Below, one piece after another: positions 18,798 through 30,076 of a stretch of DNA of 64,000 nucleotides. The DNA comes from Lysinibacillus sp. FSL W8-0992. GTDB lineage: Bacteria > Bacillota > Bacilli > Bacillales_A > Planococcaceae. The notes under the pieces are model-generated. The model was not told the origin of the DNA. It was given only the letters and a program-made list of their open reading frames with translations, and searched no databases. Positions within the stretch are counted from its first letter, which is position 1, and the number at the start of each line of letters is the position of its first letter. The DNA lies in NCBI RefSeq assembly GCF_038008685.1, contig NZ_JBBOZQ010000001.1, positions 868,001 to 932,000 of the forward strand, written 5' to 3'. The position numbers were made by a program, and so were the translations under genes.

Positions 18798-19718
18798 ATG
18801 ATAGGGAAATTAGATTTATATCGTGTTTTTAGTGTTGTTGCTAAAAGTAGTAGTTTTTCTAGGGCGGCTAAAGATTTATTTATGACGCAGCCGGCAGTTA
18901 GCCAAGCAATGATGCAATTGGAAAAAGAACTTGGTACACGACTCTTCAATCGTACACCGAAAGGCGTAACATTAACGACAGAGGGGAAGCTGCTGTATGA
19001 ATATACAAACTCGGCATTAGGTCTTTTAGATGCTGGAGAGGAAAAGCTTCTGGAATTTAAAAACTTAACGACGGGGCAATTAAAAATAGGTGTAGGAGAT
19101 ACGATTTCACGCTTCTTTTTAATGCCCTATCTCGAGGCTTTTCATACGATGTATCCGAATATTAAGCTACAGATGCTAAATGGTACGACCTCTGAAATAT
19201 GTAACTTTATTAAATCTGGTGAAGTGGATGTAGGGCTTTGCAATTTTCCGATAGAAGATGTGAGTCTACAATTAACAGTGTGTACGGAAATACAGGATAT
19301 TTTCGTATGTGGAGAGAAATATAAAACACTGCAATCAAAAAGCTTACGTTTTGAAGATCTACTTAAGTTTCCACTTATTTTTCTAGAGAAGAAATCCAAC
19401 TCAAGAAATTATGTAGAAAATTATTTACTGTCGAAAGGAATTCAAATTGCACCTGAGTTTGAACTCGGCTCGCATGATTTAGTGCTTGAATTTGCACGTA
19501 GTAATTTAGGGATTGCTTGTGTAACTAAAGAGTTTTCACAGGATTATTTGCAACGAGGACTACTATATGAGCTTCCATTAACAGAAAGCATTCCAAATCG
19601 TAGCATTGGTATGTGTTATTTAAAAAGTGTTCCATTGTCCCGTGCTGCTACAAAATTTATAGAGATTATCGAGCGTAAACAGGCTCGTAAAACGATAAAC
19701 CCTAGAACATTAAAATAA
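18798..19718 (+). CDS. LysR-family transcriptional regulator, divergent from the CofE-like gene
   Basis: 306 residues. The N-terminal winged helix-turn-helix is clear (FSRAAKDLFMTQPAVSQAMM at ~21-40, then LEKELGTRLFNRTPKGVTLT). The effector domain follows from ~residue 90 (GQLKIGVGDTISRFFLMPYL, GEVDVGLCNFPIED). AAGGAG lies 7 bases before the ATG. LysR regulators typically control a divergently transcribed neighbour, here the CofE-like ligase; the inducer is unknown. Gene and terminator overlap slightly at the 3' end. Confidence 0.93.
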   Translation: MIGKLDLYRVFSVVAKSSSFSRAAKDLFMTQPAVSQAMMQLEKELGTRLFNRTPKGVTLTTEGKLLYEYTNSALGLLDAGEEKLLEFKNLTTGQLKIGVGDTISRFFLMPYLEAFHTMYPNIKLQMLNGTTSEICNFIKSGEVDVGLCNFPIEDVSLQLTVCTEIQDIFVCGEKYKTLQSKSLRFEDLLKFPLIFLEKKSNSRNYVENYLLSKGIQIAPEFELGSHDLVLEFARSNLGIACVTKEFSQDYLQRGLLYELPLTESIPNRSIGMCYLKSVPLSRAATKFIEIIERKQARKTINPRTLK

Positions 19719-19756
19719 GCTTAGCGACTAAAATATAGCCAGCTAAGCTTTTTTTA
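19718..19756. terminator. Bidirectional terminator between the two convergent LysR genes
   Basis: AGCTTAGC (19718-19725) pairs with GCTAAGCT (19742-19749) followed by seven T residues. It overlaps the last bases of both flanking genes. Confidence 0.85.
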
Positions 19757-20641
19757 TGTCTCATTTTTCCTCGTAATAAATTCAATAAGTGCTTCAACAT
19801 TCCGTTTATTCTTCATCGTAGGTGAGTGAAGGTAAGAAAAAGTCCGCATAAAACGTTGTTCCGCAAGTGGCAAAATGGCAATATCGCCATTTCGTATATC
19901 ACGCTCAATAACACTGCCAGACAGTAAAGACAGGCCGAGTCCTTCAATGACACTTTCCTTCACGCCTTGATTGCTACTAATTGTTAGAAGTGAATGTACT
20001 TGAAGACCATTTGTGCGAAATAGATGGTCTAAATAATTGCGTGTTCCTGAGCCAACTTCTCGTGCAACCCATTTTTGTCGTTGTAATTGTGAAATAGTAA
20101 TAGAGGGTTGCTCAGCAAGGGAATTGTTACTTGCACTAACTATAAATAATTCATCTTGCATAAATGGCTGAATGACGAGCTCATTGTCATGTGCTTGCCC
20201 CTCTATAAGCCCAATATCTACTTGTAATAGCTTGGTAAATTGAATAATTTCATCTGTATTGCCAATAATAACTTGTAACTCTAATTGAGGAAATTGTTGT
20301 TGAAGTTTTGACAAAATGGATGGCAGAATATTTTCGCCAATCGTAAAGCTTGCTCCAATAATGAGCGTTCCTTGAATAGAGTGATGATATGCTAAAATAT
20401 CTTCCTGTGCAGCCTCCGCAATGGCCATAATTTGCTTTGCACGTTTATATAAAATTTCACCAGTAGGAGTAATTTGCACAGACTTTGGCGAGCGAATAAA
20501 TAATGTCGTGTGAAACTCTTGTTCAAGGTTTTTAATATGTAGACTCACACTAGGTTGGGAAATATGTAAAATTTCTGAGGCTTTCGTAAAATTGTTTACT
20601 TCAACTAATGTAATAAAAGTTTTTAACGCATCGTATTGCAT
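19754..20641 (-). CDS. LysR-family transcriptional regulator (CysL/YwfK-like), divergent from yeiH
   Basis: 295 residues. The helix-turn-helix is at ~18-40 (FTKASEILHISQPSVSLHIK). The effector-binding domain (GTLIIGASFTIGENILPSIL, LLQVDIGLIEGQ, WVAREVGSGTRNYLD) has the GxGTR pattern common to CysL/CbbR-type regulators. ATG 20641 with AAGGGG 7 bases upstream is favoured over the adjacent GTG 20644. The 114-base divergent promoter region to the YeiH-type exporter contains several AT-rich T-N11-A candidates but none stands out. Confidence 0.92.
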   Translation of the reverse strand: MQYDALKTFITLVEVNNFTKASEILHISQPSVSLHIKNLEQEFHTTLFIRSPKSVQITPTGEILYKRAKQIMAIAEAAQEDILAYHHSIQGTLIIGASFTIGENILPSILSKLQQQFPQLELQVIIGNTDEIIQFTKLLQVDIGLIEGQAHDNELVIQPFMQDELFIVSASNNSLAEQPSITISQLQRQKWVAREVGSGTRNYLDHLFRTNGLQVHSLLTISSNQGVKESVIEGLGLSLLSGSVIERDIRNGDIAILPLAEQRFMRTFSYLHSPTMKNKRNVEALIEFITRKNET

Positions 20642-20755
20642 CACATCACCCCTTATAATTAGAAAAATTAATGATAGTAATTATATATATGTATTTTACT
20701 AATGATTACCTTTTTTATAAAGTAATATTCATAAAGAATGAAAGAAGTGGACAGC

Positions 20756-21772
20756 ATGGAACAACAACAAGGGATTAAGAAATTCCTAACGCCACCTTTT
20801 ATAAAGGGCATTATATTGACGTTGGGCCTTGCCTTAGTGGCTAAGTATATTTCTACATTTCCTTTCTTCTCAATTTTAGGGCAGCTTGTGATAGCAATTA
20901 TACTAGGTATGGCTTGGAGAGCAGCGTTTAGTGTGCCAGATGCGTGGCAAACAGGTATATCCTTTTCGAGTAAAAAACTATTGCGTTTCGGTATTATTTT
21001 GCTTGGTATGCGGTTGAACTTAGCTGATATTTATCATGCAGGGGCAGGCGTTTTTCTTATTGCATTCATCAATTTAGTATTTGCACTGTTTGTTGTTTAC
21101 GGCTTAACGAAGATATTTAATGTAGATAAAAAGCTCGGCATTTTAACAGCCTGCGGGACAGCTATTTGTGGGGCTGCGGCTGTAGTTGCAATTGCGCCTC
21201 AAATTAAAGCAAATGAAAAAGAAACAGCAGTAGGTGCAGCGATTGTAGCGTTGCTTGGTACAGTATTTACACTTGTTTATACGCTGTTGTATTCAATATT
21301 TGGTTTAACGCCAACCGAATATGGTATTTTTGCGGGAGGTACATTACATGAAATAGCTCATGTCATTGCAGCAGCGTCTGCAGGTGGTGATGAGGCTGTT
21401 GATATGGCAGTCATAGTAAAATTAACTCGCGTAGCATTACTTGTGCCAGTGGCAATAGTAATCGGTATTATGTATCAAAGAAGGGATAAAGAACAAGGAA
21501 ATAAAGCATTTTCTCTTTCTATTATTCCTTGGTTTATTCTAGGGTTTTTAGTAATGAGCGGGATTAATTCATTAGGAATAGTACCACCAGCAGTTGCGCA
21601 AACTTTTGTGAACTGTGCGTATATTTTAATTGCGATGGCGATGGCAGGATTAGGATTAAATGTAGAGATTAAAACGTTTAAGCAATTGGGCATTAAAGCA
21701 TTTATCGCAGGATTAATCGGTTCTGTTTGTTTATCAGTTGTCGGCTACATTTTAGTAGTCGTGTTTCAATAA
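20756..21772 (+). CDS. yeiH: YeiH-family putative sulfate exporter
   Basis: 338 residues with about ten TM helices and the UPF0324/YeiH signatures LLRFGIILLGMRLNLADI, LTACGTAICGAAAVVAIAP, GIFAGGTLHEIAHVIAAAS and MAGLGLNVEIKTFK. Members are annotated as sulfate/sulfonate exporters on genetic grounds; direct transport data are thin. ATG 20756 is chosen (weak AAGTGG upstream) over ATG 20738, which has no ribosome site. It is divergent from a CysL-like LysR gene, the arrangement seen in E. coli yeiE-yeiH, which supports LysR control. Confidence 0.9.
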   Translation: MEQQQGIKKFLTPPFIKGIILTLGLALVAKYISTFPFFSILGQLVIAIILGMAWRAAFSVPDAWQTGISFSSKKLLRFGIILLGMRLNLADIYHAGAGVFLIAFINLVFALFVVYGLTKIFNVDKKLGILTACGTAICGAAAVVAIAPQIKANEKETAVGAAIVALLGTVFTLVYTLLYSIFGLTPTEYGIFAGGTLHEIAHVIAAASAGGDEAVDMAVIVKLTRVALLVPVAIVIGIMYQRRDKEQGNKAFSLSIIPWFILGFLVMSGINSLGIVPPAVAQTFVNCAYILIAMAMAGLGLNVEIKTFKQLGIKAFIAGLIGSVCLSVVGYILVVVFQ

Positions 21773-21931: not shown

Positions 21932-22267
21932 TTAGCTTTGTGCTTCGATAGAAGAAGCAAGCTCAGCAATAACAATTTTACTGCCGATAATAGGGCTATT
22001 CTCAGGTTTTGCACCTTCTGAGCCAGGCTCTGGACGGTGATGTGCCGCAGCAAAAGCATCACTATTACGCCAAGCTTGGAAATGTTCCTTAGATTCCCAG
22101 TACATATTGACGCTCATTTCGTCATATGTAGGATCATCTGTCGAGATTAATACCTCTACTTTATGAAAGCCCTCAAACTGTTGTAGAGGACCTGGCTTCG
22201 TAAAGTTTGGTGCCATTTTTGCTGCAAAGCCAGGCTTTACTTGAATACGATTTGTAACAATAATCAT
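21932..22267 (-). CDS. isdG: IsdG-type heme-degrading monooxygenase
   Basis: 111 residues, a dimeric ferredoxin-like (ABM) fold. The IsdG/IsdI catalytic triad is visible: Asn in VTNRIQV, Trp in MYWESKEHFQAW and His in FAAAHHRP. The PENSPIIGSKI segment near the C-terminus also matches IsdG. It opens heme to release iron. Control fits: a Fur box lies about 60 bases upstream, over the promoter region. It stands alone; no isd surface receptor or heme transporter genes are nearby. TAGGGGG lies 6-7 bases before the ATG. Confidence 0.88.
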   Translation of the reverse strand: MIIVTNRIQVKPGFAAKMAPNFTKPGPLQQFEGFHKVEVLISTDDPTYDEMSVNMYWESKEHFQAWRNSDAFAAAHHRPEPGSEGAKPENSPIIGSKIVIAELASSIEAQS

Positions 22268-22343: not shown

Positions 22344-22514
22344 ATCAATGATAAGTGTCCAAAGAAGCCATTGTCAACCGAATTGCAATAATTCAAGAGA
22401 AGAATAATAACTTTTTCTATAAATGCATTAGATGAATAGGTTGTATGGTGGATCGTTATAAGTCTGTTTTCAAATATACAAATATACATATAGAGCATTG
22501 TTCTGTAGAGCTTG

Positions 22515-22548
22515 CTGACATTTAGCTGACATAAACAGATGCTATAAT
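22515..22548 (+). promoter_or_regulatory. Promoter of the two-component genes with tandem CTGACA sites
   Basis: CTGACA at 22515-22520 and 22526-22531 (11-bp period), then TATAAT at 22543-22548. The second repeat begins 17 bases before the -10. The -35 region is otherwise weak, as expected for activation by an OmpR-type regulator. The same arrangement recurs before prsA. Confidence 0.65.
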
Positions 22549-22579
22549 AAAAAATCAACAAGCCGTGGCGGGGTGAAAA

Positions 22580-23269
22580 ATGATGACCAAAATATTAGTG
22601 GTGGAAGACGAATTCGCAATTAGCCAAGTATTGAAGGCTTATTTGCAAAAGGTTGGATATGAAGTTGTACAATGCTTTACGGGTGGTCAGGCAATAGAAG
22701 TGTTTACGGAACATCAGCCTGATTTAGTATTATTAGATATTATGTTACCTGAAAAAAACGGCTGGACGATTTTACGAGAAATTCGCAATGAGAGCGCTTG
22801 TCCAGTTATTATGCTAACTGCGTTAGGGGATGTAAATTACCGTTTAGAAGGTTTCGATCAAGGTGCAGACGATTATATTCCTAAACCGTTTATAGCTGAC
22901 GAAGTTGTCGCGCGAGTAAAGGCTGTATTAAGGCGAGCTGAAAACAATCATGAAACAACTTTAAAGAAGCGATTTGGTCAGTTGGAAATTGATATGCAGG
23001 CGCATCAAGTGCACCTCAATGGTCAAGAAATTGTGTTAACACCGCGGGATTTATCGGTGCTCTTATTTTTAGCAGAACATCCAAATCAAACATTTACAAG
23101 AGATCAGCTCATTGAACAAGTATGGGGCTGGGAATATGACGGCAGTGATCGAGCCGTCGATTTAGCGGTGAAGCGATTACGGAAAGCGCTTATAAACTGG
23201 GATGAAGCAGAAGGAGAGATTAAAACATTACGTGGATTGGGGTATCAGTTAAGTGTTCAAAAAAAATAG
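22580..23269 (+). CDS. OmpR-family response regulator
   Basis: 229 residues. The receiver domain has acidic pair E9/D10, phospho-acceptor Asp53 in LLDIMLPEKNGW, TALGD and Lys in DYIPKPF. The C-terminal winged helix (residues ~130-228) shows LTPRDLSVLLFLAEHPNQTF, QVWGWEYDGSDRAVDLAVKR and LRGLGYQL, standard OmpR/PhoB type. GGCGGGG lies 6-7 bases before the start. It overlaps the sensor kinase gene by 17 bases, so they are co-translated. Tandem CTGACA repeats in its own promoter and in the prsA promoter are likely binding sites. Confidence 0.95.
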   Translation: MMTKILVVEDEFAISQVLKAYLQKVGYEVVQCFTGGQAIEVFTEHQPDLVLLDIMLPEKNGWTILREIRNESACPVIMLTALGDVNYRLEGFDQGADDYIPKPFIADEVVARVKAVLRRAENNHETTLKKRFGQLEIDMQAHQVHLNGQEIVLTPRDLSVLLFLAEHPNQTFTRDQLIEQVWGWEYDGSDRAVDLAVKRLRKALINWDEAEGEIKTLRGLGYQLSVQKK

Positions 23270-24677
23270 GCGAATCTCCTTACTCAACTATTGGACGAGA
23301 CGTTATTTACTTACACTCTTTATAGGGCTAGCCATTATCTCTTTAATTTCCGCTAGCTGGATACGTCACACAGCTTTTGAAAATCGGCTTGATTTAATGA
23401 ATTTTATAGCGGAAGAAACAGTTTATCGGTTGACGGATACGACTGGTTCAAATGCGCCTACAGACGGCATACCAGGCTTTATCGGTAATCGTGAACGATA
23501 TAATATGAGAGAAATTGATCCGATTTTATATGTAGTTGATGTAAAAGGCAATGTTCTGACAAGTAATCGACCGATGCCTCCAGGAAGCACTAATAATGTT
23601 GCTAACTTATTAGATAATGAAGAAGGAACAAAGAAGATACTAGTCGAAGTCGATAGCAAAAAGACAGTTCAATATGTAGTGAAAAAGAAGATTGAAAAGG
23701 ATAATAATGTAGTTGGATGGGTGCTTGTGCTAGAGAAAAAGGAAAATTTGACAAAAGTTCAACAAGAATATGGTCAACTTGCCTTACTAATTGGAGCTCT
23801 TGCTGTCCTAGGCTGGGGAGCGATCTATTTCTTATCAAAGCGCTTAGTACGTCCAATTAAGCAGGTAGCTGAAGCGGCTAAACAAGTACAAGAAGGCAAT
23901 TATACATTTGATTTACCTCAAAATAATAAAGAAGAAGAAATTTTCGAGCTTGTCACATCCTTTAAGGAAATGGCCAATAAGCTAGAACAATTAGAGAGAA
24001 CGCGAACAGAGCTGCTTGCTGGTGTGACGCATGAGCTGAAAACGCCTGTTACGTCCATTAGTGGGCTTTTGCAGGCTGTAAGAGATGGTGTTGTAACTGG
24101 TAAGGACGCTAAAGAATTTATTCAAATGGCTTTGCTCGAAACGACGAAAATGAAAACGATGGTTGGAGATTTACTAGCTTTTAATAGTTTTGCAGTAGAT
24201 GCGATCCCTGTTAAGCTCGTCACAGTGAATGTCAATCATCTTGTGCGAGATGCTGTGGCACAGTGGGAAGTGATGGAGGATGAAGAAAACGTTAAAATAC
24301 AAGTAAATTATCTTCTGGAGTCAGTAAATGTGCAGGCAGATGTCGTACGTATGCAGCAAATATTCACAAACCTTTTAACAAATGCAAAGCAAGCAATGCA
24401 GGAAGGGTTAGTGACGATTACATTAAGGCAAAAACTTGATAGGGTCATTATTGCTGTTAAAGATACAGGGAACGGAATAACTCAAGAAGATCAGGCATTT
24501 ATTTTCGAACGATTTTATAGAGGGGAAAATAAAAAATACGCTGTTCGAGGACTAGGCTTAGGTTTACCATTAAGTAAAATGATGGCTCAATCAATTGGTG
24601 GTGATTTACGTTTAGTTGAAAGTAATCCAACAGGAACATGCTTTGAAATAACCTTATTAAAGGCTACTACGCTGTAA
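23253..24677 (+). CDS. Membrane sensor histidine kinase
   Basis: 474 residues. TM1 is at ~17-37, an extracellular sensor of ~135 residues follows, TM2 lies at ~176-194, then HAMP, the dimerisation/phosphorylation helix GVTHELKTPVTSISGLLQAV (His260), and an HATPase_c domain with N box FTNLLTNAKQAM, G1 DTGNGI, F box FERFYRG and G2 GLGLGLPLSK. GTG start inside the regulator gene. The extracellular position of the sensor fits a signal at the cell surface, in line with the secreted-protein foldase and surface kinase genes that follow. Confidence 0.94.
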   Translation: MFKKNRRISLLNYWTRRYLLTLFIGLAIISLISASWIRHTAFENRLDLMNFIAEETVYRLTDTTGSNAPTDGIPGFIGNRERYNMREIDPILYVVDVKGNVLTSNRPMPPGSTNNVANLLDNEEGTKKILVEVDSKKTVQYVVKKKIEKDNNVVGWVLVLEKKENLTKVQQEYGQLALLIGALAVLGWGAIYFLSKRLVRPIKQVAEAAKQVQEGNYTFDLPQNNKEEEIFELVTSFKEMANKLEQLERTRTELLAGVTHELKTPVTSISGLLQAVRDGVVTGKDAKEFIQMALLETTKMKTMVGDLLAFNSFAVDAIPVKLVTVNVNHLVRDAVAQWEVMEDEENVKIQVNYLLESVNVQADVVRMQQIFTNLLTNAKQAMQEGLVTITLRQKLDRVIIAVKDTGNGITQEDQAFIFERFYRGENKKYAVRGLGLGLPLSKMMAQSIGGDLRLVESNPTGTCFEITLLKATTL

Positions 24678-24698
24678 CGGCGTGGTGGCTTTTTTTGT
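24661..24698 (+). terminator. Terminator after the sensor kinase gene
   Basis: AGGCTACTACGC pairs with GCGTGGTGGCT (including G-U pairs), followed by seven T residues. It overlaps the kinase stop codon and separates the regulatory genes from the prsA promoter. Confidence 0.82.
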
Positions 24699-24782
24699 GC
24701 TGTATGGGAGAGAAGGGGATTTGTGAAGCTAGTATAAAGATTCACAAATGGAAATGTAAAAATTTTTGAAGGAATTGTAAAG

Positions 24783-24816
24783 CTGACATCTGACTGACAC
24801 ATAAGCACTTTATAGT
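24783..24816 (+). promoter_or_regulatory. Promoter of the prsA-VTC-DUF4956-cotH operon with tandem CTGACA sites
   Basis: CTGACA at 24783-24788 and 24794-24799 (11-bp period), then TATAGT at 24811-24816. Distances from repeats to -10 are 28 and 17 bases, identical to those at 22515. Strong candidate operator of the adjacent OmpR-type regulator. Confidence 0.65.
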
Positions 24817-24859
24817 AAGCAATGTAAACGAGAAAATAAACGAAAGGATGTTATAGAGA

Positions 24860-25723
24860 ATGACTATAAATTCAAGGTTTATCAAGATATTTGCTGTTCC
24901 CGTTGCATTAGCAATGCTATTAACTGGATGTGGAGAGAGTACCGATTATGTGGCAACGGTGGACGGTGAGAAGATTCTCCAGACAGAGCTAGATGAGGCA
25001 TTGCGCAGTCAATATGGCACAGACATGTTAAACACACTCATAGACAATAAAATCATCGAACTCGAGGCAAAAAAAGAAGGCATTACTATATCGGATGACG
25101 CCATTAAAGTGGAATATGATGAATTGGTTGAATCGTATGGCGGGGAGGATGCTTTACAAGAAGCACTCGATGCAAATGGTCTAACGAAGGAGAGTGTCAA
25201 TGATAATATTCGAATGTATCTGATGACGAAGGATGTAATTGCAGCAAGCATTGACATTACAGATGAGGAATTAAAGCAATATTTTGAAGAAAATAAGGAT
25301 GACTACGGTCAACCAGAACAAGTTGCAGCTAGTCATATTTTTCTTGAGGATGAAGCAACTGCAAAAGAGGTTGAAGCGAAAATAAAAGCTGGTGAGGACT
25401 TTGCTGAGCTAGCGAAAGCATATTCAACTGATACAGATACAAGTGAAGACGGCGGTGATTTAGGCTATATTAGCCGAGGGCAGATGGATGAGCAGTTTGA
25501 AGAGGCAGCCTTCGCTCTTGAAAAAGATGCCGTTAGCGGGGTAGTACAGTCAGCAGAAGGCTATCACATCATTAAAGTGACTGGTAAAGTGCCAGCAGAA
25601 GAAGCCGTATTTGAAGATGTTAAAGATGAAATTTATGAAACAGTATTGGAAACACGTATCAATGAAGAATATACGACTTGGTTAGCTGAAAAACAAGAGC
25701 AATACAAAATTGAAAAGAAATAG
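24860..25723 (+). CDS. prsA: PrsA-like peptidyl-prolyl isomerase foldase lipoprotein
   Basis: 287 residues. The signal peptide has lipobox LLTGC (Cys24). An N-terminal SurA-like helical region (VATVDGEKILQTELDEAL) precedes a central parvulin domain at ~150-245 (VAASHIFLEDEATAKEVEAK, FAELAKAYSTDTDTSEDGGD, LGYISRGQMDEQFEEAAFAL, GYHIIKV). PrsA proteins fold secreted proteins outside the membrane. Here it heads an operon with VTC, DUF4956 and CotH genes, suggesting it serves that system, possibly the large CotH-type product; it may be one of several PrsA paralogues in the genome. A weak AAAGGATG site precedes the ATG. Confidence 0.92.
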   Translation: MTINSRFIKIFAVPVALAMLLTGCGESTDYVATVDGEKILQTELDEALRSQYGTDMLNTLIDNKIIELEAKKEGITISDDAIKVEYDELVESYGGEDALQEALDANGLTKESVNDNIRMYLMTKDVIAASIDITDEELKQYFEENKDDYGQPEQVAASHIFLEDEATAKEVEAKIKAGEDFAELAKAYSTDTDTSEDGGDLGYISRGQMDEQFEEAAFALEKDAVSGVVQSAEGYHIIKVTGKVPAEEAVFEDVKDEIYETVLETRINEEYTTWLAEKQEQYKIEKK

Positions 25724-25741
25724 TAGGAAGGAGAAAATATC

Positions 25742-26443
25742 ATGCCTAAACTGACATCATTTAATCCAAATGGTCGCAAGGAAATTAAACAGGCAATCTC
25801 ATATCCAGACTACGCACTTTTAAAAAGCAAAATCCAGCATTTGATGCGGCTGGATCACAATGCAGGTCCGGACGGTAAGTATTTAATTCGAAGCACATAC
25901 TTCGATAATTTTGCTAACAAAGTTTTGAATGAAAAAAAAGAAGGGTTTATTAATCGAGATAAATACCGAGTACGTATTTATGGGAAATCCGCTGCTTTGG
26001 TAAATTTAGAGCGTAAAAGTAAGCGTAATAATTTAACGTTTAAAACGAAGTGTGTAATGACACAGACGGAGTACGAAAAAATGCGTACTGGTGAAATTAC
26101 ATGGATGGAAAATGATGATCGTGTTTTAATACGAGAATTATTTCATGAGATGAAATATCACCAAATTAAGCCGACGACGGTTGTCGATTATGAGCGAGAG
26201 GCGTACATTTATCCCTTTGGCAATGTACGTGTAACATTCGATAGTAAGGTGCAGTCAAGCCTTCGCAATACAGATATGTTCAGTAAAAATCTGCCTATGG
26301 TTGATGTGCTAGAACCGAACCTTGTCATTTTAGAAGTGAAATATGATGAGTACTTGCCAGATATTATTAAATATTTACTACAATCAGTGGATACACGTGC
26401 TGAAGCATATTCAAAATACCAGCTTAGCCGTATGCATGTATAA
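25742..26443 (+). CDS. VTC-domain protein (polyphosphate-polymerase-like tunnel enzyme)
   Basis: 233 residues, essentially one VTC/CYTH-type beta-tunnel domain and no membrane segment. Basic and acidic tunnel residues are kept: IRSTYFD, DKYRVRIYGKS, NLERKSKRNNLTFK, VVDYEREAYI, VRVTFDSKVQ and ILEVKYDEYLP. In yeast Vtc4 this fold makes polyphosphate from ATP, and bacterial VTC-domain proteins are thought to act on nucleotide triphosphates, but the product here is unproven. GGAAGGAG precedes the start. It lies 18 bases after prsA and 16 before the DUF4956 gene, so a tightly linked operon. Confidence 0.88.
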   Translation: MPKLTSFNPNGRKEIKQAISYPDYALLKSKIQHLMRLDHNAGPDGKYLIRSTYFDNFANKVLNEKKEGFINRDKYRVRIYGKSAALVNLERKSKRNNLTFKTKCVMTQTEYEKMRTGEITWMENDDRVLIRELFHEMKYHQIKPTTVVDYEREAYIYPFGNVRVTFDSKVQSSLRNTDMFSKNLPMVDVLEPNLVILEVKYDEYLPDIIKYLLQSVDTRAEAYSKYQLSRMHV

Positions 26444-26459
26444 AAAGGAGAAATGAAAA

Positions 26460-27143
26460 ATGGATAATATGAATTTTAGTGATATTTTTAAATCAAATTT
26501 TCTAGAGAAAACAACATCATTTTCATTAACAGATTCAATCATTGGACTAGTTGTTGCTTTCTTTGTTGGGCTATTTATTTACGCAGTATATAAGAAAACC
26601 TTTAATGGTGTGATTTATTCGCACTCCTTTAATATTTCGTTGCTCATTATGACTATGGCAACATCGCTCGTTATTATGGGTATTAGTTCTAACGTCTTGT
26701 TGTCTCTTGGTATGGTAGGTGCATTATCAATTGTTCGTTTCCGTACACCTATTAAGGACCCAATGGATTTAGTGTATATTTTCTGGGCAATAGTGTCAGG
26801 TATTCTTTGTGGAGCAGGATTCATTCCACTTGTTATTATTGGCGCAATATTGATTGGTTTAGTTCTACTAGTATTAGTGAATAAAATTACAATTGAAAAT
26901 CCTTACTTATTAATTGTGAAATTTGAAGAAGATATAGCTTGTGAAGAAGTGGAGCGTATCATTGCTGCACAGTCTAAAAAGTACGCGTTAAAATCAAAAT
27001 CAATCATACAAAATGATGAAATCGAAACAACATATGAAATTCGCGTGAAGCAAAATGATGCAAAGTTTATGGACAATTTAACAAAAGTACCTGGTGTAAA
27101 ATCAGCAATTATGCTTAGCTACGATGGTAACTTCACAGCGTAA
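26460..27143 (+). CDS. DUF4956 membrane protein, partner of the VTC-domain protein
   Basis: 227 residues. Four hydrophobic segments (about residues 24-46, 60-80, 82-90 with the conserved LGMVGALSIVRFRTPIKDP loop, and 105-140) are followed by a soluble C-terminal ~85-residue domain (LIVKFEEDIACEEVERIIAA, YEIRVKQND). This is the DUF4956 architecture, regularly encoded next to VTC-domain and CotH genes. The invariant RFRTPIKDPMDLVY loop is charged and may bind a phosphorylated substrate (inference). It probably anchors or channels the product of the VTC protein at the membrane. AAAAGGAG lies 9 bases before the ATG. Confidence 0.85.
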   Translation: MDNMNFSDIFKSNFLEKTTSFSLTDSIIGLVVAFFVGLFIYAVYKKTFNGVIYSHSFNISLLIMTMATSLVIMGISSNVLLSLGMVGALSIVRFRTPIKDPMDLVYIFWAIVSGILCGAGFIPLVIIGAILIGLVLLVLVNKITIENPYLLIVKFEEDIACEEVERIIAAQSKKYALKSKSIIQNDEIETTYEIRVKQNDAKFMDNLTKVPGVKSAIMLSYDGNFTA

Positions 27144-27191
27144 TGAAAGTGAATGATTGTTTTCTAACTACGAGCAAGAGAGGTGCAGTCA

Positions 27192-29228
27192 ATGATTAAA
27201 AATCGAATTGTCTATACCAGTATGGCGATTCTCCTCCTACTCTTTGGCGTGATGGTTGCTGTACTTCCAAACTTAGGCATTGAAACGAAAAATACGGAAT
27301 ATTCCTATGAGACGCTTGTGTTCAATAAAAGCAAAGTAACAACTGTTGATATTGAAATACCTCAAGAGGACTGGGAGGACATGCTGGAAAACGCTGCTGA
27401 TGAGGAGCTAAAGCAGGCCAATATAACAATAAACGGCAAGACAATAGAAAATGTAGCGATTCGTACAAAAGGTAATTTATCGTTACGTTCTGTTGTCAAT
27501 AGCGACTCCGATCGTTATAGCTTGAAAGTCGATTTTGACTATTATGATGATACGCAAAGCTTATATGGCTTAAAAAAATTAAATTTAAACAATAACTACA
27601 GTGATTCAACTTTAATGCGAGAATATCTTTCATATGAGCTCATGGAAAAAATGGGCTTACCGACACCTGCCCATTCCTATATGTATGTTACGGTTAATGG
27701 TGAAGAACGTGGCTTATATTTAGGGGTAGAAGCGGTCGATGAAACATTTTTAGCGAATAATTACGGAACCAATGACGGGTTTTTATTTAAACCAGATGGT
27801 ACAGGTAGTGATTTAAAATATATTAGTGATAATATTGCCGACTACACGGGAATTGGTTTGAAAACAAATGAAGACAATATTGAGGATTCAAAGTTAACTG
27901 ACATGCTTGATGCCATAAATAATGGCGGAGACATCGAACAATATATTGATGTCGATGAAATGCTACGCTACTTTGCTGTCAATACTGCACTAGTAAATTT
28001 AGATAGTTACCAAGGAAATATGAAGCACAACTACTATTTATATGAGAATAATGGCGTGTTTTCTATAATACCGTGGGACTATAATATGTCATTCGGCGGC
28101 TTTGGTGCTGGCGGTGGTGGAATGGGCGGCGGCAATCCAGATCAAATGCGGGGAAATGCGAATAATGAATTACCTGCAGAAGGACAGACGGAGGAAAACG
28201 CAGACACACCAGCTATGAAGCAACCACAAGAGGGTCAACCAAATGGTGAGCAATCACAAGAAGGTCAGCCAAATGGTGGGCAACCGCAAGAGGGTCAACC
28301 AAATGGTGAGCAAGCGCAAGAAGGACAGCCAAATGGTGGGCAACCACAAGAGGGTCAACCAAATGGTGAGCAAGCGCAAGAAGGACAGCCAAACGGCAAG
28401 CAAGCGCAAGAAGGACAGTCAAACGACGAGCAGACACAAGATGGGCAGCAAAACGCTAATCGCAATAAAGGGAACTTCGACATGGGCGGTGGTATGTCTA
28501 GTAATCTAATGGCAGATAGTGCAATAAACTTTAGCATAACTACACCTGTATCTGGGACAACTCTAGAAGATCGCCCACTTTTAAATGCTTTACTGTCCAA
28601 TGAAACATATCGCGCTAAGTATGAAAGTTATTTAGAACAACTCGCAACAACTTATTTAACAGAAGATTATATTCAGTCGATTACGAACAACTTAGCGATG
28701 CTATTAACAAGCTATGAAGAAGCAGATCCTACAAAGTTTTATACAACAGAGCAGTTTTTAGAAGGTGTGTCAGGGGACAACAGTCTACCTGAATTTGCTA
28801 AACAACGTTCTGCATCAATCTTAAAGCAACTGTCAGGTGAATTAGTTGTAGAAACAAGTGCGACTGCTCAAGGTAATATGGGTATGCCAAATGGCGACAC
28901 AAACAATGAGGCAAATGGAAATCAAATGCAAATGCCTGACGACTTTGATCCGAGTCAATTACCAGAAGACTTTGATCCAAGCCAATTACCAGCAGACTTC
29001 GACCCCTCACAAATGCCTGAGGGTGGCATGGGCAATGAGCAAGGTGGAAAAGCTAATGGTGGTCCAATGCAACGTCCAGATGGAATGGGTTTCCCTAACC
29101 AAGGCAATGGACAGGCAACTCAAGAAACAGGAATTGATAAAAGCACAGTGCTAACAGCTACCGCAACGTTTTCATTTTTAGTGGCTGCACTCCTCTTTGT
29201 TTTTAGATTTAATCGTAGAGGACGTTAA
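27192..29228 (+). CDS. CotH-family kinase, membrane-anchored, with repetitive linkers
   Basis: 678 residues. N-terminal TM (~5-25), then a CotH kinase domain: FDYYDDTQSLYGLKKLNLNN, LGVEAVDETFLANNYG, FLFKPDGTG, NLDSYQGNMKHNYYLYEN and the metal-binding IIPWDYNMSFGGFG. It is interrupted by a ~110-residue Gln/Glu/Gly/Pro/Asn-rich linker with eight 10-residue repeats, resumes at NFSITTPVSGTTLEDRPLLN, and ends with a second low-complexity region (three DFDPSQLPx repeats) and a C-terminal TM plus FNRRGR. CotH proteins are atypical kinases; B. subtilis CotH phosphorylates spore-coat proteins. GAGAGGTG sets the start at ATG 27192. The gap from DUF4956 is 48 bases. Confidence 0.9.
   Translation: MIKNRIVYTSMAILLLLFGVMVAVLPNLGIETKNTEYSYETLVFNKSKVTTVDIEIPQEDWEDMLENAADEELKQANITINGKTIENVAIRTKGNLSLRSVVNSDSDRYSLKVDFDYYDDTQSLYGLKKLNLNNNYSDSTLMREYLSYELMEKMGLPTPAHSYMYVTVNGEERGLYLGVEAVDETFLANNYGTNDGFLFKPDGTGSDLKYISDNIADYTGIGLKTNEDNIEDSKLTDMLDAINNGGDIEQYIDVDEMLRYFAVNTALVNLDSYQGNMKHNYYLYENNGVFSIIPWDYNMSFGGFGAGGGGMGGGNPDQMRGNANNELPAEGQTEENADTPAMKQPQEGQPNGEQSQEGQPNGGQPQEGQPNGEQAQEGQPNGGQPQEGQPNGEQAQEGQPNGKQAQEGQSNDEQTQDGQQNANRNKGNFDMGGGMSSNLMADSAINFSITTPVSGTTLEDRPLLNALLSNETYRAKYESYLEQLATTYLTEDYIQSITNNLAMLLTSYEEADPTKFYTTEQFLEGVSGDNSLPEFAKQRSASILKQLSGELVVETSATAQGNMGMPNGDTNNEANGNQMQMPDDFDPSQLPEDFDPSQLPADFDPSQMPEGGMGNEQGGKANGGPMQRPDGMGFPNQGNGQATQETGIDKSTVLTATATFSFLVAALLFVFRFNRRGR
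28224..28463 (+). repeat. Eight 30-bp tandem repeats inside the CotH-family gene
   Basis: In-frame units encode variants of (P/S/A)QEGQPNG(E/G/K)Q; the last two are diverged (AQEGQSNDEQ, TQDGQQNANR). Units 3-4 and 5-6 form near-identical 60-bp blocks, so recent duplication is likely. Prone to slippage, hence length variation between strains is expected. Confidence 0.92.
28941..29021 (+). repeat. Three 27-bp repeats in the CotH-family gene
   Basis: They encode DFDPSQLPE, DFDPSQLPA and DFDPSQMPE in direct succession, an acidic proline-spaced stalk before the C-terminal membrane helix. Confidence 0.88.
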
Positions 29229-29269
29229 AAATACACCATAGGCAAACATTTTAATATGGTCAGAGTGTC

Positions 29270-29320
29270 AAAAATGGCATCAAGAGGCTCACTCTTGATG
29301 CCATTTTAGTGCCAGGCACT
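29270..29320. terminator. Terminator of the cotH operon fused to a dispersed palindrome
   Basis: AAAATGGCATCAAGA pairs with TCTTGATGCCATTTT over a short loop. AGTGCCAGGCACT (29308-29320), a reverse copy of the element at 21832, follows immediately. Confidence 0.78.
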
Positions 29321-29473: not shown

Positions 29474-30076
29474 ATGAATGAACAACAGTTTGATAAACTT
29501 TTGCACATTAATACAATTGGAGAACAATATGGATTTCCTAAACTAGCTCATTACCATCGTTATGAGCCAACTCCCTATGCTGGATTGGAACAATTATTTA
29601 CACAATATGATTTGCCGGAAAATCCAGTATTTATTGATATGGGCTGTGGAAAAGGAAGGGTCCCTATTTATATTCATCATAAATTTCACACTCCGGCAAT
29701 TGGAATAGAAATGGACGCAGGCTTTTATGCAGAGGCAGAGCATAATAAGGAGAGCTATTGTCGAAAAAATGGCTCACAAGGTGCCATTTCTTTTGTTCAT
29801 ACTATTGCAGAAAACTACAAAATAAAGCCGTGTGATAATGTTTTTTTCTTTTTTAATCCGTTCTCCATCAATATTTTCCGAACTGTCATTCATAATATAT
29901 GGGAGTCTTATGAGCAAAATATGCGTGATATTCACATTATTTTATACTACCCACCATATGATTATTTGCAGTTTTTACATCATGGTACACCTTTTGAATT
30001 AATACATGAAGTACATCTAGAAAATGAAACAAATATTAATGAACGTCTTTGCGTTTTTGCATTAAAAAAGGCGTAA
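29474..30076 (+). CDS. SAM-dependent methyltransferase (class I)
   Basis: 200 residues. Motif I FIDMGCGKGRVPIYIH (~54-69) and acidic motif II IGIEMDAGFY define a Rossmann methyltransferase. A later block DNVFFFFNPFSINIF carries an NPF in place of the usual motif IV, as in N- or O-methyltransferase-like proteins of unknown substrate. GAGGAG lies 11-12 bases before the ATG, a little far. It is monocistronic, with a strong terminator shared with the convergent photolyase gene. I do not recognise the substrate. Confidence 0.82.
   Translation: MNEQQFDKLLHINTIGEQYGFPKLAHYHRYEPTPYAGLEQLFTQYDLPENPVFIDMGCGKGRVPIYIHHKFHTPAIGIEMDAGFYAEAEHNKESYCRKNGSQGAISFVHTIAENYKIKPCDNVFFFFNPFSINIFRTVIHNIWESYEQNMRDIHIILYYPPYDYLQFLHHGTPFELIHEVHLENETNINERLCVFALKKA

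Follow-up and report, generated by a model that had tools for sequence, protein, structure and literature searches.

A two-component-linked VTC-DUF4956-CotH module in Lysinibacillus as a possible bacterial counterpart of the yeast VTC complex

Why should a gene for a soluble VTC (triphosphate tunnel) protein stand beside genes for a DUF4956 membrane protein and a CotH-family kinase-like protein, behind a two-component system? We addressed this question for a cluster within a 64,000-nucleotide stretch of Lysinibacillus sp. FSL W8-0992 (contig NZ_JBBOZQ010000001.1, positions 868,001 to 932,000; hereafter the window, whose own numbering is used). By open reading frame (ORF) call and Pfam search, the cluster consists, as an initial annotation of this DNA had described, of six adjacent genes, all on the + strand and spanning 22580-29228: a response regulator, a sensor histidine kinase, a PrsA-type lipoprotein, the VTC protein, the DUF4956 protein and the CotH-family protein. 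We give roughly even odds (about 0.5) to the reading that this locus is a two-component-linked VTC-DUF4956-CotH module that would be the bacterial equivalent of yeast's VTC complex. The module itself is real and widespread, and it is apparently regulated.

A near-obligate VTC-DUF4956 pair and its outer partners

We searched 299 genomes of the same phylum with the Pfam profiles of VTC, DUF4956 and CotH, and later with those of Cthe_2159 and PelG. DUF4956 was found in 48/299 genomes and VTC in the identical 48, the pair being present in 37 of 210 genera. A VTC gene lay on the same strand and within 3 kb of 54 of the 55 DUF4956 copies; the unpaired copy starts at base 307 of its contig, and the VTC gene of that genome is on another contig. 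CotH was likewise on the same strand and within 4 kb of 34 of the 55 copies, and 39 of the 44 genomes with CotH were among the 48 with the pair. The association p-values were 1e-56 and 1e-34, with genomes treated as independent. The gene association is far above chance, and the random co-occurrence that the initial annotation had considered does not describe these genomes. Near-complete co-occurrence identifies VTC and DUF4956, a near-obligate pair, as the core of the locus; of the proposed VTC, DUF4956 and CotH grouping, the association is supported for the pair itself, CotH being a frequent but not an obligatory companion. Among 14 control genomes, VTC and DUF4956 were present in Bacteroides ihuae, Corynebacterium glutamicum and Methanosarcina acetivorans, CotH in C. 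glutamicum, M. acetivorans and Bacillus subtilis, and Cthe_2159 in B. ihuae; the B. subtilis genome gave neither a VTC nor a DUF4956 match.

We scanned ten genes neighbouring the pair. Eight came from survey copies that lack CotH, one from L030, a related locus also without CotH, and one from L070, where it stands beside CotH. Nine encoded Cthe_2159 proteins (PF14262), and the one from L070 a leucine-rich repeat protein. Across the 299 genomes, Cthe_2159 lay within 6 kb of 13 of the 21 CotH-less copies versus 1 of the 34 copies with CotH (a count using 36 of 60 match rows, the other 24 being extra pieces of the same frames), and 26 of the 31 genomes with Cthe_2159 were among the 48. This family is described as polysaccharide-binding, with a lyase-like beta-helix (PMC8746771, PMC9210967). 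Because Cthe_2159 stands near so many CotH-less copies, a reading of the locus as a phosphorylation machine only is too narrow; the presence of two unlike outer proteins with one inner pair points instead, we infer, toward export of a product and away from a single fixed kinase reaction. PrsA, which had been proposed as a general part of the machine, was found in 8 of 30 related loci and in none of 54 survey loci, which rules it out as a core part and marks it as a lineage-specific addition.

Gene fusions were considered as proof of partnership and set aside. A joined VTC+DUF4956 query matched 309 proteins, of which 120 were listed; in several of these a single frame carries VTC and DUF4956, DUF4956 and CotH, or all three domains, and others join DUF4956 to unrelated families. 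The six sequences that we read look like domain-losing joins or shifted frames, the parts lost being the VTC C-terminus, the DUF4956 N-terminus or the CotH N-lobe, and such proteins were taken as assembly or deletion artefacts. One listed protein, the Caryophanon tenue "response regulator" P0248, is a receiver domain joined to DUF4956 without its first helix; it is probably a deletion or assembly join, of two families that are neighbours in this cluster. Variant gene orders were seen as well. In locus L095 (G099:C5:150500-169500), two CotH genes in a row precede VTC-DUF4956, with PelG just upstream; the same genome holds two more copies, of which one lies with CotH on a different contig and the other has Cthe_2159 at a distance of about 20 kb. 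DUF4956 precedes VTC in the distant loci L073, L087, L088, L096-L098 and L102 (L098 stops after DUF4956), where CotH is mostly absent nearby and some loci carry genes of 425-436 aa just upstream.

Predicted properties of the VTC, DUF4956 and CotH proteins

The VTC gene (25742-26443, + strand) encodes a predicted polyphosphate (polyP) polymerase of 233 aa, consisting of the VTC domain only (129.9 bits, Pfam cut-off 23) and with zero transmembrane (TM) segments in a hydropathy scan. A search of the PDB with the single sequence gave zero matches, and a profile search with the family recovered Vtc4. The fold of the predicted model is closest to VTC tunnel domains, the best VTC chains reaching Z 18.8 versus 15.9 for the first other protein, although one Vtc4 entry, 3g3t, scores Z 15.4, below that first non-VTC match; the next structural matches are adenylate-cyclase- and triphosphatase-type tunnel proteins. 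Three alignments were made, of 21 of the 30 related loci plus the window (A1), of 18 of the 30 related loci, 9 of the 120 listed homologues and the window (A2), and of 31 of the 53 survey VTC proteins and the window (A3). The residue counts drop one of 84 VTC proteins (<200 aa) and one of 85 DUF4956 proteins (<180 aa); since L033 and L104 are apparently one stretch from two collections, the sets of 83 VTC, 84 DUF4956 and 63 CotH proteins include one duplicate, plus near-identical relatives. The equivalents of Vtc4 K200, R264, R266, K281, K294, R361 and R373 are invariant in 83/83 proteins. Of the positions at the tunnel exit, R12 aligns with Vtc4 R196 and E14 with T198; R12 is basic in 82/83 proteins and K200 in 83/83. 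Judged from the alignment and the model, the tunnel is not degenerate, which agrees with the earlier description of a soluble protein with its tunnel residues kept and leaves no sign of the inactive tunnel that the same annotation had envisaged as a counter-argument. The window's own genome also carries a PPK1-type gene elsewhere, and PPK is described as the main bacterial polyP enzyme (PMC10657179).

The DUF4956 gene follows (26460-27143, + strand; 42.6 bits, cut-off 30.6) and its product is a predicted translocator. Its nearest named relatives are Lysinibacillus proteins, 98% and 97% identical. Helices at 23-47, 55-75, 79-94, 101-119 and 122-142 of a weak model are compatible with the four TM segments annotated earlier plus one short helix. 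The protein appears MgtC/SapB-like: NF007431 hits all but one of 22 aligned members at E <=0.1 (best 1.8e-8) and PF02308 hits 15 of 22, although the window protein itself falls far below the curated cut-offs (PF02308, 15.0 of 31.4 bits; NF007431, 20.2 of 214 bits). The C-terminal domain is ACT-like and matches Mycobacterium tuberculosis MgtC among many ferredoxin-like folds; the structural matches listed fall on this domain. PDB searches gave zero matches with the single sequence and nothing convincing with a profile (best E 0.09). G87, R93, R95 and G114 are invariant in 84/84 proteins. As the yeast VTC complex requires basic TM1 residues lining its channel (PMC9911596), the invariant arginines are, by analogy, candidates for a polyP path.

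The CotH gene extends to 29228 on the + strand; the longest frame begins at an in-frame GTG at 27183, and the ATG at 27192, preceded by a ribosome-site-like stretch, is the likely start. The protein scores 220 bits against a cut-off of 23.8 and has TM segments at 9-27 and 656-674 in the hydropathy scan, in line with the earlier description of a CotH with TM helices at both ends and intact motifs. Among 63 locus-linked CotH proteins, D274, E183 and D299, which we presume to be catalytic, are kept in 63, 63 and 62, and likewise in 5/5 spore-type proteins chosen by length and place; an N-terminal TM segment is present in 62/63 and a C-terminal one in 44/63. The position of the kinase part between two TM segments, with basic residues at the expected inner ends, predicts that it faces outside. 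The long insert past WDYN, whose length was measured in the 35 of 63 proteins with both motifs, is rich in Gly, Gln, Asn, Glu and Pro; in this strain it is made of a 30-bp tandem repeat of 7.8 copies (28219-28453, + strand). An LPxTG-like anchor occurs in 1/63. A second low-complexity stretch, a 27-bp repeat coding FDPSQLP units, lies near the C-terminus (28941-28999).

Linkage to two-component genes and shared regulator boxes

The response regulator gene (22580-23269, + strand) encodes an OmpR/PhoB-family protein of 229 aa with Response_reg and Trans_reg_C domains, and overlaps the histidine kinase gene (23253-24677, + strand; HAMP, HisKA and HATPase_c). The kinase has TM segments at 19-37 and 176-194 with about 138 residues between them, close to the outer domain of about 135 residues annotated before. 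We fetched 54 survey loci, of which 53 were complete. Both two-component genes lay within two genes of the core in 22/53 complete loci, the response regulator alone in 3 and the kinase alone in 1, and response regulators accounted for 25 of the 203 genes at offsets 1-2 versus 6 of 461 farther away (Fisher p 5e-9). Among the 30 related loci, for which gene calls were mechanical and labels came from profiles made with the window proteins, a response regulator was present in 22, and the order response regulator-kinase(-PrsA)-VTC was found in 19, with a 76-aa ORF called in between in one of them. The first ten related loci listed are from Lysinibacillus, records very near the window possibly being left out, and the set extends to Desulforamulus, whose regulator is 64% identical. 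Those of L028 and L031 are only 34% and 29% identical, so the linked pairs are not all the same one. The two-component genes are linked with the locus well past Lysinibacillus.

Linkage of this kind agrees with the two-component-controlled cluster first proposed. The cluster looks like two transcription units, response regulator-kinase and prsA-VTC-DUF4956-CotH, the second starting with prsA (24860-25723, + strand; PpiC rotamase with a SurA-like N-terminus). Between them are a 182-nt gap and a terminator-like hairpin (24659-24693, + strand) that reaches back into the last bases of the kinase gene. Hairpins of this sort are not enriched in the window (5 found versus a shuffle mean of 4.9).

Both units are preceded by a putative regulator box. 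Box 1 (GCTGACAT; 22514-22532, + strand) is a direct repeat of 11 bp start to start before the response regulator gene, with a -10 hexamer TATAAT (22543-22548, + strand) 11 nt beyond the 18-nt box pattern. Box 2 (GCTGACATCTGACTGACA; 24782-24799, + strand) lies before prsA with the same geometry, the -10-like hexamer TATAGT (24811-24816, + strand) standing 11 nt beyond it. In the 4.69-Mb genome, the pattern GCTGACATNNNRCTGACA is matched exactly at two sites, both in this cluster, with 1 mismatch at one site and with two at 19; the reversed pattern gave 9 sites at up to two mismatches. The 1-mismatch site (C1:1642794), antisense within an ORF by genes that look phage-like by eye, was taken as chance. 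A search of both strands of 25 related loci (407 kb) gave 35 sites at two mismatches or fewer, those of close species being non-independent, and 29 lay within 200 nt upstream of the response regulator or first structural gene. Three more are so placed once mis-called VTC starts (L020, L026) and the head of a longer operon (L029) are allowed for by hand, and three remain off-site. In Lysinibacillus loci without prsA, the box is immediately upstream of VTC. The best -10-like hexamer stands exactly 11 nt past the box in 30 of the 32 on-site boxes, ties being resolved in favour of this offset, and TATAAT is matched at >=5 of 6 positions at offset 10-12 in 26/32 sites versus 4% of random upstream positions. 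When an OmpR/PhoB-type activator stands in for a -35 element, such a box-to-hexamer geometry is expected, and the spacing fits this expectation for a predicted binding site. In L030, the box is kept, Cthe_2159 takes the place of CotH, and no response regulator was found in the fetched stretch. In L025 (7432-7460), the box has grown to three repeat units before VTC, again with no response regulator in the fetched stretch.

Past the cluster lies a 200-aa methyltransferase-like protein gene (29474-30076; weak DOT1 and Methyltransf_25 matches, under cut-offs), and an ORF alike in size and place only is found in several Lysinibacillus loci. Just before the two-component genes, a divergent gene encodes an IsdG-type heme oxygenase (21932-22267; NF009840, 160 bits, cut-off 119), and several relatives have a minus-strand ORF of 110-132 aa at this position, again judged by size and place. 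A YeiH-family putative sulfate exporter beside two ORFs that resemble LysR regulators by eye occupies 18798-21772.

A possible polyphosphate synthase-exporter and its rivals

In the reading that we favour, the linked response regulator would bind both boxes and activate both units. The cytosolic VTC enzyme would likely polymerise phosphate from ATP while docked on DUF4956, and the MgtC-like DUF4956 protein would then likely pass the polyP chain outward, in a topology that is itself predicted. The outer-face partner, CotH here and Cthe_2159 beside other copies, probably uses or holds the chain at the surface, and PrsA probably helps to fold the outside parts in some Lysinibacillus relatives only. 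The yeast complex (Vtc4 with Vtc1/Vtc3) resembles this arrangement: its triphosphate-tunnel polymerase is cytosolic and has the tunnel residues seen here, its membrane partner requires basic residues, and synthesis is coupled to translocation (PMC9911596). It differs in that the polymerase here is separate and soluble, the membrane partner is MgtC-like, control is predicted to be transcriptional and delivery would be outward.

Several observations weigh against this reading. The VTC protein has neither the SPX domain nor the fused TM domain of its yeast counterparts, structural comparison by itself does not tell Vtc4 apart from Vtc2/Vtc3, and the DUF4956 membrane part is modelled weakly (mean predicted local distance difference test score 68). 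E14 is Glu in 82/83 proteins at the position of Vtc4 T198; since an acidic tunnel patch is tied to hydrolytic triphosphate tunnel metalloenzymes (TTMs), which carry four Glu where the polymerase has four basic exit residues (PMC4641920), the protein could also be a phosphatase. Of the 58 VTC matches, four lie away from any DUF4956 gene: G247 C23, a pair of fragments in G281 C2, and G058 C52, which is the VTC gene of the genome with the unpaired DUF4956 copy. Both CotH and Cthe_2159 are missing from the neighbourhood of 8 of the 55 DUF4956 copies, the listed matches included no credible gene fusion, and 27 of 53 survey loci have neither two-component gene within two genes. The box pattern was derived from the window's own sites, the relatives carrying it are mostly close Lysinibacillus, and L027, L028 and L031 are without it before VTC (6-7 mismatches). 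Lastly, deletion of the VTC gene SIR_1593 in Streptococcus intermedius was followed by no reported change in aggregation or Pel in the excerpt of PMC12345266.

That work bears on an explanation in which VTC-DUF4956 would sense or buffer phosphate or ATP and tune an exopolysaccharide or adhesin, the outer proteins modifying or binding glycan without polyP export. Streptococci, clostridia and bifidobacteria are reported to carry a cotH/PPP/DUF4956 trio next to Pel genes (PMC7112168), and S. intermedius strains deleted for SIR_1592 (DUF4956-like) or SIR_1594 (CotH-like) lost more than half of their aggregation in artificial sputum and were altered in Pel (PMC12345266), so it is partly outdated to call the co-occurrence of these genes undescribed. 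Cthe_2159 is a carbohydrate-binding family (PMC8746771, PMC9210967), and PelG adjoins two CotH genes and the VTC-DUF4956 pair in genome G099. SIR_1592-1594 are adjacent members of the same three families, with MgtC and ACT features noted (PMC12345266); the window locus differs in having no PelG and its own two-component system, regulator boxes and PrsA. According to the excerpt of that paper, no such synteny was seen away from Pel; here 34 copies have all three families together, while PelG is matched in 11/299 genomes, just two of which are among the 48 with the pair (in one case on a different contig), and the window's genome gave no PelG match. Pel is ruled out as the general context, the fully conserved polymerase-type residues argue for catalysis, and we think this explanation unlikely.

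We find it more doubtful still that VTC is a tripolyphosphatase or other TTM hydrolase signalling to its MgtC-like neighbour, in keeping with the action of MgtC on phosphate metabolism. The acidic E14, the adenylate-cyclase- and triphosphatase-type proteins as next structural matches, the MgtC-like character of DUF4956 and the reported link of MgtC with phosphate metabolism (PMC12345266) would fit. The lead of about 3 Z units of the best VTC chains, 3g3t excepted, and the basic R12 and K200 speak against it. The likeness of DUF4956 to MgtC/SapB lies in the membrane helices, ACT-like domain and weak profile matches, and the difference in its scores and in its pairing with VTC.

It could also be that exported polyP, instead of ATP, is the phosphate donor of CotH in an extracellular protein-phosphorylation system. 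ATP is scarce outside the cell, and an anchored CotH whose kinase part is predicted outside stands next to a polyP-type polymerase. However, spore CotH is an ATP-dependent kinase, and Cthe_2159, which is no kinase family, takes the outer place beside most CotH-less copies; we regard this as highly improbable. The window CotH resembles spore-coat CotH (PDB 5jd9/5jda) at E 1e-17 over residues 125-306, with the conserved Asp and WDY motif kept, and differs in being membrane-anchored, predicted outside and endowed with the long insert; the locus-linked proteins read WDYN (Asn in 55/63) versus WDYD in 4/5 spore-type proteins. A fuller scheme, in which VTC-DUF4956 is a polyP synthase-exporter under a two-component switch, the chain is the CotH donor, Cthe_2159 is a calcium- or glycan-linked scaffold elsewhere and the outer chemistry is ATP-independent, strikes us as improbable.

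Related clusters are on record. In Clostridium perfringens NELoc-2, CP4_0460-0465 combine VTC-domain and CotH genes (PMC2879425), and CP4_0461 (226 aa) and CP4_0464 (222 aa), labelled tubulin/FtsZ GTPase, are likely DUF4956 proteins, by size and place only. That cluster differs in its two VTC copies and resolvase, and the excerpt names neither a two-component pair nor Pel. For the two-component link and the CotH/Cthe_2159 alternation, we found no prior report in the open-access journal papers searched.

A synthase-exporter of this kind, its gene pair being present in about one sixth of the sampled genomes, would, if true, be a second, export-coupled polyP route beside PPK. It would provide a source for surface polyP and a role for non-spore CotH proteins, and the origin of the eukaryotic VTC complex would become testable in bacteria. 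The shared regulator boxes would offer a direct handle on the inducing signal.

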